From Cyclobacteriaceae bacterium (GTDB lineage Bacteria; Bacteroidota; Bacteroidia; Cytophagales; Cyclobacteriaceae): a DNA stretch of 64,000 nt. Position 1 is the first letter of the stretch. Each line of letters opens with the position of its first letter. Location of the stretch: contig JAEUTZ010000004.1 in assembly GCA_016787725.1 (NCBI GenBank), positions 248,001 through 312,000 of the forward strand, written 5' to 3'. Of this stretch, positions 2,678 to 32,735 are shown one piece after another. The notes under the pieces are model-generated. The model did no database searches. It worked only from the letters and a program-made list of their open reading frames with translations, and was not told where the DNA came from. The position numbers and the translations under genes were made by a program.

Positions 2678-3827
2678 GATTGAATTAGAGCAGTTTAAGG
2701 CCGGCCAATACGAAAAAAGCCCTGCCGGGTATCAATACTTCGTTCCCAATCGCGTAAACGAAGCCTGGATATGGAACAACCCGCTAATTAACAACCTACT
2801 TGAAAAAGCAGCCATTAAACTGGGCGAGCTTAACTCCTATGCCAGGTTGGTGCCAAACATAGACTTGTTCATTCAACTGCACGTAACCAAAGAGGCGGTT
2901 ATTTCAAGCCGTATTGAAGGCACACAAACACGAATTGATGAGGCACTCTTAAATGAAACAGATATTGCCCCTGAAAGGCGTGATGACTGGAAAGAAGTGC
3001 AGAACTACATCAAAGCACTTAACAAGGCCATTAAGGAATTAGAAAAACTGCCCATCTCTTCGCGACTCATACGCCACACACATAAAATACTGTTGAGCAG
3101 TGTTCGTGGTGAACACAAACAGCCAGGTGAATTCCGAACGAGCCAGAATTGGATTGGAGGAACAAGTCCTGCTGATGCAAAATTTGTACCCCCTCACTAT
3201 CAATATGTAAATGAATTGATGGGTGATTTGGAAAACTTCATTCATAATGAGGAAGCCAATGTGCCGGCACTCATACGCATGGCCATAGCACATTATCAAT
3301 TCGAAACCATACACCCCTTCCTGGATGGTAACGGACGTATAGGTCGCCTGTTAATTACACTATTTCTGGTGGACCAGAAAATAGTGACCAAGCCACTGTT
3401 GTACCTCTCCACCTATTTCGAAAACAATAAAGGGCTGTATTACGACAACCTCACCTTTGTGCGTACAAAGGACGACATGACCCAATGGATAAAATACTTT
3501 CTCTTGGGTGTAGCCGAAACAGCCCAGCATACAACCGAAACATTGCAAAAAGTATTATCACTCAAAGAAAAATTAGAAACTAAGATTTACACCACCTTTG
3601 GCCGCAGGAGCAACAGTGCCATTACATTACTTAGTCATTTATTTAAACACCCGATTGTTGATGTCCGCGAAGTTCAGAAAACCGCTAAAGTAAGTTACAA
3701 GGCAGCCAATGATTTGGTAAATGATTTTGTGGAGGCGAAGATACTGAAGGAAACTACCGGCCAAAGCCGCAATCGGTTATTCTCGTTTGATACGTACCTG
3801 GAGTTGTTTATTAAAAATAGAAGCTAA
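2676..3827 (+). CDS. Fic family AMP-transferase with N-terminal inhibitory helix (class II)
   Basis: The protein is 383 aa. The Fic core motif HPFLDGNGR lies at residues 213-221: His213 would be the catalytic base, and the Gly/Asn/Arg loop binds ATP phosphates. An inhibitory motif SSRIEG lies at residues 77-82 (class II, S/TxxxE G/N), which in this family blocks ATP binding until relieved. Residues ~1-70 look like the Fic_N domain, and the C-terminal ~70 residues look like a winged helix (REVQKTAKVSYKAANDLVNDF). Known relatives adenylylate protein hydroxyls; the target here is unknown. The start follows two copies of a 40-bp unit that may be its operator. A second, distinct Fic gene lies 600 bases further on the opposite strand. 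Confidence 0.9.
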   Translation: MIELEQFKAGQYEKSPAGYQYFVPNRVNEAWIWNNPLINNLLEKAAIKLGELNSYARLVPNIDLFIQLHVTKEAVISSRIEGTQTRIDEALLNETDIAPERRDDWKEVQNYIKALNKAIKELEKLPISSRLIRHTHKILLSSVRGEHKQPGEFRTSQNWIGGTSPADAKFVPPHYQYVNELMGDLENFIHNEEANVPALIRMAIAHYQFETIHPFLDGNGRIGRLLITLFLVDQKIVTKPLLYLSTYFENNKGLYYDNLTFVRTKDDMTQWIKYFLLGVAETAQHTTETLQKVLSLKEKLETKIYTTFGRRSNSAITLLSHLFKHPIVDVREVQKTAKVSYKAANDLVNDFVEAKILKETTGQSRNRLFSFDTYLELFIKNRS

Positions 3828-16611: not shown

Positions 16612-16874
16612 AAGAAAAAAAGCGACCGCAATCCAGAGGCGGGTTTTTGTGTAAGGGGCAGCCTGTCCGCCCTATGGCGGAAAGGATCCCCCAATAAGAA
16701 GAAGGGATAACAGTCTTCGCTCGAGGGGATTCTTCGCTCCATTCAGTTTCTTTTTTCAACAATCCCTTACTAGTAAAGAATCCTTTCATCCTCAATCGCA
16801 GTAACGATCCGCTCTGAATTGGTTTCAATTATTTTTAGTATCCCTAAGAAGAAGAATGGCAATGAACTTCGATC
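16612..16874 (+). repeat. Family A nested inverted repeat, copy 1
   Basis: The order is: poly-A, GCAATCCAGAG (outer left arm), GGATCCCCC (inner left), loop, GGGGATTCTTCGCT (inner right), a ~90-base segment, GCTCTGAATTGG (outer right), then T-rich. A 20-base palindrome, TCCGCCCTATGGCGGA, is inserted next to the inner left arm. Read on the minus strand, the element encodes MKGFFTSKGLLKKETEWSEE and continues to YWGIL in one frame. See the GIY-YIG entry at 31830 for interpretation. Confidence 0.85.
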
Positions 16875-16875
16875 G

Positions 16876-17165
16876 AGGAGCAAACAAAAAAAACAATAGC
16901 AATCCAGAGCAGCGAAGGGTAGAGGGCGGAAGCGAAGGATCCCCCCATAAGGAAGAGAGATAACGTGCTTCGCTCGAGGGGATTCATCGCTGCCTCCGTT
17001 TCTTTCTTAAACAGTCCTTACTAGTAAAGAACCCTTTCATCCGCAAAGCACAGCCACGATCCGCTCTGAATTGCTTTCAATTATTTTTTTGTTATTAAAA
17101 CCAACCGCAATCTGATGAGTGAGGGAATCAGTCTGGCGGATCTGAATTGCTTTCAATAAAAATGA
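16876..17165 (+). repeat. Family A nested inverted repeat, copy 2, plus a short extra right arm
   Basis: The same arms are seen: CAATCCAGAGC near 16897, GCGAAGGATCCCCC, GGGGATTCATCGC, and CTCTGAATTGC near 17073. Directly after, ACCGCAATCT and GGATCTGAATTGC (17100-17155) form a miniature second copy with almost nothing between the arms. The minus-strand frame again begins MKGFFTSKD but stops soon. Confidence 0.8.
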
Positions 17166-17189
17166 AAAAGGTAAGGAATCGACCTTTCT

Positions 17190-17540
17190 GCGGTAGGTTG
17201 CAAGCACCGTGCGTGGTGAGGTTGGCTTCGTGAGAAGTGAAGTCGGCACCGCGGGCAGAGAAGTTGGCACCGCGGAAGCGAAAGTAAGCAGTGTCTGCCA
17301 CTGTATCAGGCGCTGTGAGTAGCGCAGGTCGTACCAAAAGTACCGAAGTTACCCCCGTGAAGAGTGAAGGAAGCACCGGCAGCGACTACAATGACTATCG
17401 GGAGCACGGAAGAATGCTCCTCATGCTCCAATAAATGTATCGTGAGAGGTGGTGGAAGCATCGTGGGAAGTGAGTGAGGCACCGCGGGTGGAGAGAAAGG
17501 CACCGCGGAAAGAAGTAAAGGTACCGCAGGCCGGTGCGGA
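17190..17540 (-). repeat. Two short arrays of degenerate 21-bp tandem repeats
   Basis: On the plus strand, units of exactly 21 bases ending in GGCACCGCG follow one another at about 17211-17273, and a second array ending in GCACCGCGG lies at about 17441-17525. On the minus strand the first array would read GANFSAR, GADFTSH, EANLTTH, a seven-residue pattern. No intact gene contains it, so this may be a decayed repeat-protein gene or a non-coding satellite. I see no other coding signal between 17166 and 17888. Confidence 0.6.
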
Positions 17541-19424: not shown

Positions 19425-20185
19425 TTCGTTCGAGGAGCCAACAAAAAAGCAACCGCAATCGAGTAAGAACTTGTCACCCTGAGCCTGTCGAAGGGTGACT
19501 TCGGTGTACTCTATAGAGAATTGGTAATCGAGGAGCAACCAAAAAAGGGACCGCAATCCAGAGCAGCCTCGGGTAGAGGGCGGAAGCGAAGGATCCCCCA
19601 TTAGAAGTCGGCTAAACAGTCTTCGCTCAAGGGGATTCTTCGCTCCATTCCGTTTCTTTCTTTACCGATTCCTTACTAGCAAAGTCCCCTTTCATCTGCA
19701 AAGCACAGTCACGAGCCGCTCTGAATTGGTTTTCAATTTTTTTTGGTTATCACTTACAAGAAGTATGGATAATTAACTTCAATCGCGGAGCAACCAAATA
19801 AAGCAACCGCAATCCAGTAAGAACTTGTCACCCTGTCCAAAGGACTCCTACGGAGAGCCTGTCGAAGGGTGACTTCGGTGTACTCTATAGAGAATTGGTA
19901 ATCGAGGAGCAACCAAAAAGGGACCGCAATCCAGAGCAGCCTCGGGTAGAGGGCGGAAGCGAAGGATCCCCCATTAAGAAGCGGGGATAACAGTCTTCGC
20001 TTGAGGGGATTCTTCGCTCCATTCCGTTTTTTTCTTTACCGATTCCTTACTAGCAAAGTCCCCTTTCATCTGTAAAGCACAGTCGCAAGCCGCTCTGAAT
20101 TGGTTTTCAATTTTTTTTTGGTTATCACTTACAAGAAGTATGGATAATTAACTTCAATCGCGGAGCAAACAAAAAAACCAACCGC
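19425..20185 (+). repeat. Tandem pair of family A elements with family B hairpins inside
   Basis: Two copies of ~360 bases lie head to tail (about 19430-19785 and 19785-20165), over 90% alike by eye. Each holds: left A-rich arm, AAGAACTTGTCACCCTG with its inverted partner (family B), TCGAGGAGCAA, a full set of family A arms, then TTGGTTATCACTTACAAGAAG. Copy 2 has about 20 extra bases, TCCAAAGGACTCCTACGGAG, inside the family B hairpin. The minus-strand frames begin MKGDFASKESVKK and reach TEWSEESP in both. No conventional gene is visible from 19391 to 20334. Confidence 0.85.
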
Positions 20186-28247: not shown

Positions 28248-28738
28248 ATCCCTCACTAGTAAAGAACCCTTTCACCCACCAGACCCAGCCACGATCCGCT
28301 CTGAATTGCTTTCAAAACTTTTTTTATCCACAACAAAAACAGAGTCACTGAACTTCGCTCGAGGAGCCAACAAAAAAGCGACCGCAATCCAGTAAGAACT
28401 TGTCACCCTGAGCCTGTCGAAGGGTGACTTCCGTGTACTATTTAGTGAAATTGTAAGTCATACTTCGACAGGCCTGCCTTTGCCGAAGCGGCTTCGCGCA
28501 GGCAGGCTCAGCATGACAGATTCTTAATGACTTGCATTTCATAGATCCTGCTCCACGATGCTCCATGAGGATCCCGGCTTCCCGCAAAAGCGTGGCCGGG
28601 ATGACAGCTTCGTAGCATGGATGTAGATCAATAATCGTAAATCTAAAATCGTCAATCTAAAATCTTCCCCTCAGGTTTTTTCATAGCTTTCAACTTTAAA
28701 CTTTCAACTTTCAACTCCACCATCCTATCTTCACTCCC
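28248..28738. repeat. Family A right half joined to family B block; CTTTCAACTTT repeats
   Basis: 28250-28390 carries the family A right part (CCCTCACTAGTAAAGAACCC, GCTCTGAATTGC) and the next left arm (CGACCGCAATCCAG). 28396-28668 is a third family B block. Within it, ACTTCGACA and GGCTCAGCATGACAG are separated by a ~34-base palindrome around GCCGAAGCGGC that is absent at the same point at 26166. Tandem CTTTCAACTTT units lie at 28687-28716. Confidence 0.75.
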
Positions 28739-31289: not shown

Positions 31290-31697
31290 ACGTGCTTCAA
31301 TTGATGAGCAAACAAAAAAAGGCAATCGAAATCCAGAGCAGCGCAGGCTGGGAGGTGGGAGGCAGCCTGTCCGCCCTAGGCGGAACCTGTCCGACTACTG
31401 GCGGAAGGATCCCCCAATAGGAGTCGCTATAACCAACTTCTAATCGAGGAGCAAACCAAAAAAGCAACAACAATCCAGAGCTGGGGTGGGCTGTGGGTGG
31501 AGCGAAGGATCCCCCAATAGAAGCTGGGATAACGAGCTTCAACCGAGGAGATTCTTCCCACCAACAGGCGGGCAAGCTGCTGTATTCCGTTCATAATTCC
31601 CTTTCATCCGAAAAGCACAGTCACGAGCGGCTCTGAATTGCTGTCAATATTTTTTTGATTGTCTCAAACAAGAAGAATGAATAAACTTAAATGGAGG
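31290..31697 (+). repeat. Family A element, compound copy with two left halves
   Basis: Two left halves (AAATCCAGAGCAGC near 31330 and CAATCCAGAGCTGG near 31470) share one right half (GGAGATTCTTCCC, CGGCTCTGAATTGC near 31635). Next to the first inner arm there are two successive micro-palindromes, TCCGCCCTAGGCGGA and TCCGACTACTGGCGGA. The minus-strand frame starts MKGNYERN. I see no gene between 31148 and 31829. Confidence 0.75.
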
Positions 31698-32210
31698 AGA
31701 AAAACAAAAGCCAACCGCAATCCAGAGCAACGGCAGGCATGAGGGTGGGAGGCAGCCAGTCCGCCCTTTGGCGGAAGGATCCCCCAATAGGAGTCGGTTT
31801 TAAAGGGGGGCATTCCAAGCATAACCGCACTACGGCTCCATCCCCATAATGCGGTCAGTCAAGTCATTCCAACCCGGATTCATTTTTGTAATCAGGTCTT
31901 CCTTATACGCCCGACTTTTTCCTTTGATAAACCGTTCTCGTTCAAGCGCGGCTTCTTCAGAATCCAATGTTTCAAAGTAAACAGGCTTGATGAGGTTATA
32001 CCGCGCAGTAAAACTTCCAGGATTTATTTTTCGAATGTGTTCCCATAATCGCGTTCGCAGATCCGTAGTCATACCAACGTAGAGAACAGTATGGTGTTGA
32101 TTGGTTAACAGGTAAACGAACGCTGCAGGCCGCATGATTTGAATTTCACTAATTTTTCAAATAGAAAAAAAGGCCAGACTGGCGGATCTGAATTGCTTTC
32201 AATGTTTTTT
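31698..32210 (-). mobile_element. Family A element carrying a GIY-YIG gene between its outer arms
   Basis: The left outer arm CAATCCAGAGC is at 31718-31728 and the inner left arm GGATCCCCC at about 31778. Then comes the GIY-YIG gene (31830-32135, minus). The right outer arm TCTGAATTGC is at 32187-32196, followed by TTTCAATGTTTTTTT. TCTGAATTG pairs with CAATCCAGA at 8 of 9 positions. In all other copies the space between these arms holds only a short leftover frame. I read this copy as the gene-bearing form of the repeat. Confidence 0.55.
31830..32135 (-). CDS. GIY-YIG endonuclease domain protein
   Basis: The protein is 101 aa, a single GIY-YIG domain. The first strand reads FVYLLTN (the GIY half as VYL) and is followed by VLYVGMT (the YIG half as YVG). 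Arg (TRLWEH) and Glu (ALERERF) complete the expected active site, and NPGWNDL is the usual end of this small subgroup. Free-standing domains of this size are numerous in Bacteroidota and have no settled role; homing endonucleases and UvrC use the same fold to cut DNA. It lies inside the inverted arms of the repeat family described here and is read in the direction in which empty copies keep their short frame. A link to spread of these repeats is my inference. Confidence 0.9.
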   Translation of the reverse strand: MRPAAFVYLLTNQHHTVLYVGMTTDLRTRLWEHIRKINPGSFTARYNLIKPVYFETLDSEEAALERERFIKGKSRAYKEDLITKMNPGWNDLTDRIMGMEP

Positions 32211-32575
32211 TATAAAAACCAACTGCAATCCAGAGCTGGGGTGGGGTTGAGCCGAGGGGGCGAAGGATCCCCCAATAGGAGTCGCTATAACCGGCTTCGC
32301 TCGGGGGGATTCTTCGCTCGCTTCTCTTCTTCTTCAATGATCTCTTCTTGATAAAGAACCTGCTTCAACCACAATGCGTATTCCCTTGCCGCTCTGAATT
32401 GGTTTTCAATAAAAAAATAAATGACCCTAATCCAGTCCAAGGGACTCCTTTGGAGAGCTTGGGCGGGCTTGTGTGTGAGGGGCGAAGGATCCCCCATTAG
32501 AAGACGAGATTACAAGCTTTGACCGAGGAGATTCTTCTCCGCCAGCTGGCAGATCTGAATTGCTTTCAATTATTC
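32206..32575 (+). repeat. Two further family A copies
   Basis: The first (32212-32420) has TGCAATCCAGAGC, GCGAAGGATCCCCC, GGGGGATTCTTCGC and GCTCTGAATTGG. The second (32425-32575) has TAATCCAG, then the micro-palindrome TCCAAGGGACTCCTTTGGA, GCGAAGGATCCCCC, GGAGATTCTTC and GATCTGAATTGC. The minus-strand frame of the first is longer (WLKQVLYQEEIIEEEEKRAK) but corresponds to the same place. Confidence 0.75.
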
Positions 32576-32735
32576 TTATTATCCACTACAAAAACGCAGG
32601 GTCACTGAACTTCGATCGGGGAGCAAACAAAAAAGCAACTACAATCCAGAGCAGGGTGAGGTTGAGAGTGGGGGCGAAGGATCCCCCATTAAGAAGCAAA
32701 GGTGCAGTCAGGTCTTCCGACCTGATTGTTTTTTT
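32576..32735 (+). repeat. Family A left half ending in a hairpin
   Basis: ACTTCGATCGGGGAGCAAAC, CAATCCAGAGC and GCGAAGGATCCCCC are present, then the copy stops. GTCAGGTC and GACCTGAT (32709-32728) form a hairpin followed by eight T, which could terminate minus-to-plus read-through. A TTTTAAATTTTGAATCTTG stretch then leads to the DUF2784 gene. Confidence 0.65.

Follow-up and report, generated by a model that had tools for sequence, protein, structure and literature searches.

Introduction

The phage T4 GIY-YIG gene SegB is said to lie near tRNA genes, and fungal mitochondrial GIY-YIG homing genes reportedly come with duplicated gene ends; we know of no homing genes of this type with duplicated ends from bacterial chromosomes or in company with palindromic repeats. 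Site-specific single-strand nucleases, termed Ssn, were reportedly described in Nature Communications in 2025, where a Neisseria GIY-YIG enzyme is said to cut a repeated sequence only as a single strand. In that work the short target is reportedly repeated many times in Neisseria, and many homologues are reported to have sequences of their own. To our knowledge, the mobile-unit anatomy, the arrays of empty copies and the tRNA branch set out below are not part of that work. The first-pass annotation of the DNA analysed here knew of no description of a system in which a GIY-YIG nuclease is paired with palindromic repeats, which, given the Ssn paper, was probably too strong.

A superfamily of CGTC-tagged REPs was defined by Di Nocera et al. 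2013 (PMC3733652) and reported from five phyla, with Bacteroidetes, alphaproteobacteria and Neisseriae among the hosts. That survey concludes that these REPs apparently lack a dedicated transposase and leaves their mobiliser open, and the term 'GIY-YIG' is absent from its text. RAYTs, which are tyrosine transposases of the Y1 HUH type, are there assigned to REPs with a GTAG tag (PMC3733652). Among the matches listed in our literature searches, none linked GIY-YIG genes to bacterial REPs or to tRNA duplications.

A GIY-YIG gene inside a copy of a palindromic repeat

The window, that is, the whole stretch analysed, comprises 64,000 nt of Cyclobacteriaceae bacterium GCA_016787725.1 (JAEUTZ010000004.1, 248,001-312,000, forward), and coordinates refer to it. 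The 101-aa GIY-YIG gene that the first-pass annotation had placed between the outer arms of one copy of repeat family A was confirmed by its open reading frame, its match to PF01541 and the positions of the arms:

31717..32196, minus strand: gene-bearing copy of palindromic repeat family A (outer arm, gene, inner arm, outer arm)
32185..32196, no strand assigned: outer arm upstream of the gene, GATCTGAATTGC
31830..32135, minus strand: GIY-YIG nuclease gene, 101 aa (open reading frame; PF01541, 50.6 bits, cut-off 22.6)
31772..31785, no strand assigned: inner arm downstream of the gene, CGGAAGGATCCCCC
31717..31728, no strand assigned: outer arm downstream of the gene, GCAATCCAGAGC

Read in gene direction, the outer arm CAATTCAGA starts 60 bases before the ATG; the inner arm GGGGGATCC lies 44 bp past the stop codon and is followed by the outer arm GCTCTGGATTGC. 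PF01541 is the sole Pfam family above cut-off for the window protein, whose nearest solved relatives by sequence are the UPF0213 proteins 1zg2 and 1ywl. Residues Y8, Y19, G21, R29, E67 and N86 (numbering of the first row) are invariant across 13 aligned clade proteins, and the first five presumably include the GIY-YIG catalytic residues. In fold and in these five residues the clade proteins resemble the Ssn nucleases as these are reported.

The likeness to RAYT/REP pairs drawn in the first-pass annotation is apt. As in such systems (REPtron, REPIN), one small nuclease-like gene is bracketed by inverted palindromic repeats, and gene-less singles, inverted pairs and clusters are dispersed in the genome; in contrast to them, the protein is of the GIY-YIG type and lacks PF01797, and its repeats either resemble CGTC REPs or, as in the window, differ from them in sequence. 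The source genome does carry two PF01797 (Y1/RAYT-like) genes, L172 (C5:200022) and L173 (C5:135234), and the family A repeats could in principle be REPs of a RAYT located elsewhere, with the GIY-YIG gene as a passenger. By eye, however, each of the two genes is flanked by palindromes of its own (GTCAGGTCTTACGACCTGACTG; AGCGCGCGTTTGTAACGCGTGC), and family A arms occur near them only as scattered, short, fuzzy matches. In view of this, and of the association of repeats with GIY-YIG genes above controls (see below), we consider the passenger reading extremely improbable, and a RAYT origin of family A was set aside.

Gene-less copies of family A

The family A unit is a palindromic repeat of ~175 nt. 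The window contains seven complete gene-less units, all in one orientation, and several half units:

16629..16822, minus strand: empty copy, fold z -3.4
16900..17074, minus strand: empty copy, fold z -1.3
19554..19729, minus strand: empty copy, fold z -4.0
19927..20103, minus strand: empty copy, fold z -5.3
31471..31641, minus strand: empty copy adjoining the gene copy, fold z -2.4
32226..32402, minus strand: empty copy adjoining the gene copy, fold z -5.7
32428..32563, minus strand: shorter empty copy whose left arm contains a micro-palindrome (at 32436), fold z -1.5
31329..31427, minus strand: half copy (plus-strand left half), end approximate, by eye
32642..32691, minus strand: half copy (plus-strand left half), end approximate, by eye
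28260..28309, minus strand: half copy (plus-strand right half), start approximate

The fold energies of 14 family A entries, in which one unit is counted on both strands, lie below those of mononucleotide shuffles (z -1.3 to -5.7). About nine empty copies with the same arms and orientation had originally been reported; seven complete units bear this out, but several of the positions given are partial copies. Those at 28250 and 32576 are half copies, as is that at 31290, which precedes the complete unit beginning at 31471. The positions 19425 and 19785 mark left arms, each separated from the real unit by another repeat.

With one unit as BLASTN query, 24 matches were obtained in the source genome on contigs C15, C22, C1, C4 and C5, including complete units outside the window on C22 (L131), C1 (L132), C4 (L133) and the window's own contig, C15 (L134). 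A BLASTN scan of the genus yielded 20 matches in the source genome and, among 58 other genomes, one weak match each in G041 and G027 only; that in G041 adjoins a gene related to the window gene. Family A is almost private to the source genome.

Reading frames that start with MKG and reach TEWSEESP in several empty copies had been likened to the start and end of small GIY-YIG proteins, and the empty copies had been suggested to be internally deleted derivatives. The MKG frame exists, but ATGAAA occurs in only 8 of the 18 extracted family A entries, which represent 16 distinct units, two of them taken on both strands: seven C15 units carry it in a common position and one entry in a different position, and it is absent from all four L131 units and both L132 units. 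No Pfam match at E<=10 was found for three window frames from empty copies or for the typed MKG...WSEESP frame, and the latter had no match in NCBIfam either. The frame was rejected as a GIY-YIG relic, as it matches no profile and is not general among the units; judged by this frame, an origin of the empty copies by internal deletion is not supported. Six family A regions outside the window contained no GIY-YIG remnants in tblastn searches (E<=1).

A second dispersed hairpin repeat (TTGTCACCCTGAGCCTGTCGAAGGGTGAC or variants) is located at 19465, 19819, 25089, 26099, 27994 and 28394 and in places adjoins family A left arms; L001 has a GIY-YIG gene that is flanked by a repeat of similar kind. 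Tiny palindromes of 16-28 nt (e.g. TCCAAAGGACTCCTACGGAG, TCCCGA..TCGGGA) were seen by eye inside the loops of repeats and tRNA copies, at 19836-19855, 32436-32455 and 16677-16700 of the window and at L002, L003 and L018, with sister copies that lack them. The window also holds a CGTC-like REP at 28569-28607 (GGATCCCGGC...GCCGGGATGACAG) and imperfect repeats with a 21-nt period, possibly coding repeats, at 17187-17510.

Related genes within the genus and the order

In G041, a gene 66% identical to the window gene lies in a tandem array with the same architecture as family A. The outer arms resemble CCAATTCTGAGC / GCACTCAGGATTGG and the inner arms GAGCGAAGAATCCCC / GGGGATCCTTCG, and downstream of the gene an inner arm is followed by an outer arm, as at the window gene. 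The gene of G049 (65% identical) is preceded by a complete unit, with an inner and an outer arm directly past its stop codon, and G045 (L035) has the same layout. An array with family-A-like arms in G027 has no GIY-YIG gene within ~1.5 kb, which counts against a strict one-to-one link between gene and repeat. The gene neighbouring the window site was found in the source genome and three others; its neighbourhoods differ between genomes, and no empty site of the window copy was therefore obtained from the other three.

Ten PF01541 genes were identified in the source genome. Its other small ones lie by tRNA genes, except for L001 (beside another repeat) and L007 (at a contig end). Arms around other GIY-YIG genes had been anticipated; the source genome in part contradicts this, as its other free-standing genes are without family A arms, with a single stray fuzzy match at L009 as the sole exception.

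Relatives of the window protein (E<=1e-12) occur in 87 of 292 genomes of the order. We analysed 30 loci, which are the best matches to the window protein (the window gene included) and not a random sample. At least two repeat arms with at most one mismatch lie within 500 bp of the gene at 28 of these loci; the gene is inside a repeat at 15 (4/600 for shuffled flanks), and the strict order O-I-gene-i-o is seen at six (0/600). Repeats across the gene are direct at 21 loci, inverted at 11 and of either kind at 25. The repeats share an architecture consisting of an outer arm (e.g. GTCATTGCGA or GTCATTCTGA), an inner arm (e.g. GAAGCAATCT or GAAGAATCTC) and their mirror halves. Because the arms are shared, flanks taken from two different clade loci also match one another, in 55 of 870 pairings. 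At L157, the 500 bp on each side of the gene-bearing unit contain four complete empty units plus a portion of another, and at L147, L156 and L165 the gene lies between complete units. Control genes of the large GIY-YIG type had at least two arms in 5/21 cases and were inside a repeat in 0/21, and tRNA-type GIY-YIG genes had arms in 2/33 and were inside a repeat in 0/33; the arm lists differ slightly between order loci, named loci and controls, that for the order loci also holding family A arms.

The same pattern was seen at 80 loci from named organisms, the best matches to a profile of 13 clade proteins and likewise not a random sample: arms are present at 77, and the gene is inside a repeat at 37. 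By name, 76 of the 80 were taken as Bacteroidota, the rest being MAGs named Chlorobiota, Limnohabitans, Armatimonadetes and 'bacterium'. Both flanks were available for 78 loci, of which 66 have direct or inverted flanking repeats and 40 inverted ones; in such terminal inverted repeats around a gene, as in the 32-bp ends of L224 (see below), the units resemble MITEs or insertion sequences. A tRNA within 500 bp was found at 0/80. Embedding in palindromic repeats that have empty copies alongside is thus common among related GIY-YIG genes, as proposed (15/30 order loci, 37/80 named loci, G041 and G049), with 15/30 and 43/80 genes, respectively, scored as not inside a repeat.

One strict repeat pattern tracks the clade genes over the order (34/50 versus 53/242 genomes, p 7e-10) but not within the single families f13 (p 0.17) and f1 (p 0.54), so that shared ancestry may explain the correlation; the suggested relation of repeat number to GIY-YIG gene presence is accordingly found only at the wider scale. 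Sites of this pattern lie within 600 bp of the gene at only seven of 28 loci, where they number 17 against 0.069 expected for the 28 genes.

Short, fast-evolving genes might simply gather in repeat-rich intergenic DNA. Arms of 10 bases do arise by chance, as the large-gene controls illustrate, and these controls are all GIY-YIG genes; yet the excess of strict sites, albeit clustered at seven loci, and the direct repeats at small genes in the census described below make chance or bias a very improbable explanation. The association of the GIY-YIG gene with palindromic repeats is real and general in the loci examined.

A gene-bearing unit at two sites in Chryseobacterium

At eight Chryseobacterium loci, inverted ends of ~32 bp enclose the gene, the stop codon of which touches the right end. 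Seven genomes (L209, L210, L216, L219, L231, L235 and L241) have the unit at one common site, where it separates what we take, by eye, to be a barnase-like and a barstar-like gene. In L224, the unit is located at another site, between genes named by eye as DinB-like and Sua5-like; it spans 2942-3338 (397 bp) and has 32-bp terminal inverted repeats. When L224 was compared by BLASTN with the seven in turn, the main alignment always started at 2939-2942 and stopped at 3338-3342, and four of the seven pairs gave one further match, an inverted match of the unit ends. DinB was found in all eight genomes and Sua5 in six of the seven other than L224; in the downstream stretches fetched from the seven (0.9 kb only for L257), the L224 site contained no GIY-YIG gene. 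These data show that the gene and its inverted ends are one unit at two unrelated Chryseobacterium sites. By eye, the eight junctions have no obvious target-site duplication, and no exact empty site was found in the loci examined. Strict repeat sites number 3 to 34 per genome in the eight genomes; 30 fetched repeat loci comprised eight with the GIY-YIG unit (five different units), ten with a gene-less inverted pair and 12 with a single repeat.

We consider it probable that the members of this GIY-YIG branch are each paired with a palindromic repeat, the gene copy being autonomous and the empty copies its non-autonomous relatives. Family A would be the repeat of the window gene within this branch of small GIY-YIG genes, and its gene-bearing copy (outer arm, gene, inner arm, outer arm) the autonomous unit, to which the empty ~175-nt copies would stand as REPs do to RAYTs or MITEs to a transposon. 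The enzyme would recognise the arms as hairpins, probably in single-stranded DNA, and cut at them, whereupon repair would copy the repeat to another location, either with the gene or on its own. That the nuclease mobilises the repeats is what we infer from their association; taken together with the reported Ssn work, the closest working analogy may be RAYT acting on single-stranded REPs.

Homing would read the same loci differently: the repeats would have spread by other means, and the enzyme would cut intact palindromes (or tRNA genes), into which the gene is then copied, splitting its own recognition site. This suits the palindromes interrupted by the gene at 15/30 and 37/80 loci, which would destroy the site, as well as the sister branch beside tRNA genes with part of the tRNA duplicated and the way in which target type follows the gene tree (see below). 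The single and paired repeats of Chryseobacterium, however, look like the ends of the unit itself, and in L224 the complete unit, ends included, lies elsewhere, for which homing would need a pre-existing repeat at that place, itself possible. On balance, we regard homing as rather unlikely. The readings considered here overlap, and the likelihoods attached to them are not exclusive shares.

CGTC-type repeats beyond Bacteroidota

A tblastn search of a plasmid collection returned 33 records, mostly from Rhizobium, Sphingobium, Shinella and Sinorhizobium, and also from Neisseria, Planktothrix and Aeromonas. Inverted repeats bracket the gene above shuffles at 12 of the 16 loci fetched; the other four had no repeat above shuffles (L300, L302 and L306) or direct repeats only (L301). 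At ten of the 16, the bracketing repeats were read by eye as CGTC REPs (e.g. CGTCATCCTCGGGCTTGACCCGAGGATCCA). These loci are from Neorhizobium, two Shinella, S. meliloti, Rhizobium CIAT894, Azospirillum, Novosphingobium, two near-identical Sphingobium and N. gonorrhoeae. Like CGTC REPs, the repeats of many relatives begin with (C/T)GTCAT and form inverted pairs, whereas the outer end of family A in the window, CAATTCAGAGC, has no CGTC, TGTC or CCTC tag.

The gonococcal relative is 41% identical over 86 aa, and its gene is bracketed by inverted CGTC REP dimers. Such a location would also suit a role in DNA maintenance or uptake of the kind reported for Ssn in Neisseria, in which single-strand cuts at repeats tune recombination and residence in repeats is a by-product. 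A unit at unrelated sites, tandem arrays and genome-private repeat families fit this role poorly, and we judge it improbable as the explanation.

As enzyme and repeat also occur together in many other bacteria, the nuclease may be the partner, missing until now, through which such repeats spread. With CGTC REPs bracketing GIY-YIG genes, a protein of ~100 residues becomes a concrete candidate mobiliser for them; the GIY-YIG enzyme is a good candidate answer to the question of what mobilises CGTC REPs. Should this hold, palindromic repeats of bacteria would be maintained by a further class of enzymes in addition to RAYTs, and some of the genes annotated merely as 'GIY-YIG nuclease family protein' would be autonomous members of mobile units of very small size, such as that of 397 bp in L224.

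A sister branch at tRNA genes

The members of a sister branch of small GIY-YIG genes adjoin tRNA or tmRNA genes that are duplicated in part; they share the strand of these genes and in places form tandem arrays. The branch is represented in the source genome by L002, L003, L005, L008 and L009 and elsewhere by many of L011-L101 and L308-L337. Like GIY-YIG homing genes, the gene is free-standing and adjoins a duplicated part of what would be its target gene.

A census of PF01541 genes in nine genomes gave 80 matches, 59 small and 21 large. Direct repeats flank 44 of the 57 small genes with both flanks; pairings of flanks from different loci matched at rates of 9/326 within one genome and 23/723 between genomes (a 25% random draw of pairs), which argues against chance or bias. 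A tRNA lies within 350 bp of 33/59 small genes, and 51/57 have a tRNA or direct repeats. All 41 counted tRNA neighbours in this census are on the strand of the gene. The large genes had neither direct repeats (0/21) nor a tRNA within 350 bp (0/21).

At the level of the phylum, the tRNA-branch profile matched in 91 of 148 genomes. Among 30 fetched loci, two of which (L308 and L319) repeat census genes, a tRNA is near in 27, with 30/30 such tRNAs on the strand of the gene, and flanking repeats were detected at 24/28. The displaced tRNA copies were compared with the tRNAs themselves for 39 remnants that could be aligned to a tRNA above shuffles; these came from the census and from 16 of the phylum loci, duplicates and unalignable cases being skipped. 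A perfect stem of at least 7 occurs in 21/39 displaced copies versus 5/39 tRNAs, and one of at least 6 in 29/39 versus 12/39. Several of the displaced-copy hairpins, TCCCG...CGGGA or TCCGCC...GGCGGA, are at the former position of the anticodon arm.

Target type was mapped onto a tree built from 86 small genes over 74 columns, many of its forks being weak. Rows of fewer than 55 residues were dropped; every third of the 30 order loci (10 in all) was included, as were another 22 loci from the genus. The labels REP, for nine census loci, and tmRNA were assigned manually on the basis of the flanks; 13 rows were labelled 'other'. The label repeat versus tRNA takes two changes on this tree, the shuffled mean for the repeat group being 21.7, and all labels together take 30 versus 56.8 when shuffled. 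Rows with His, Gly, Asp, Met and Pro cluster, whereas those with Leu, Asn and Val do not and those with Arg hardly do (5 changes versus 5.9 shuffled); the poor clustering of these four is in part due to tandem copies labelled 'other'. As vertical inheritance beside one tRNA can yield clustering, the pattern indicates a stable association and not proven specificity.

We tentatively propose, short of considering it probable, that small GIY-YIG genes may make up one large class of mobile genes that target hairpins and fall into two branches. In the first, CGTC-type REPs and private palindromes, family A among them, would have their missing partner. The second would be the tRNA/tmRNA branch found throughout Bacteroidota, with several clades true to one tRNA type, an intact tRNA on one side of the gene and a displaced copy, often with a stronger hairpin, on the other. 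The tRNA branch is the most novel part of the findings and would be a new kind of tRNA-borne element that uses tRNA genes as sites without an integrase. At L076 and L079, tandem 5' fragments of tRNA-Pro with a D-loop hairpin, a tRNA-derived repeat, lie upstream of the gene.
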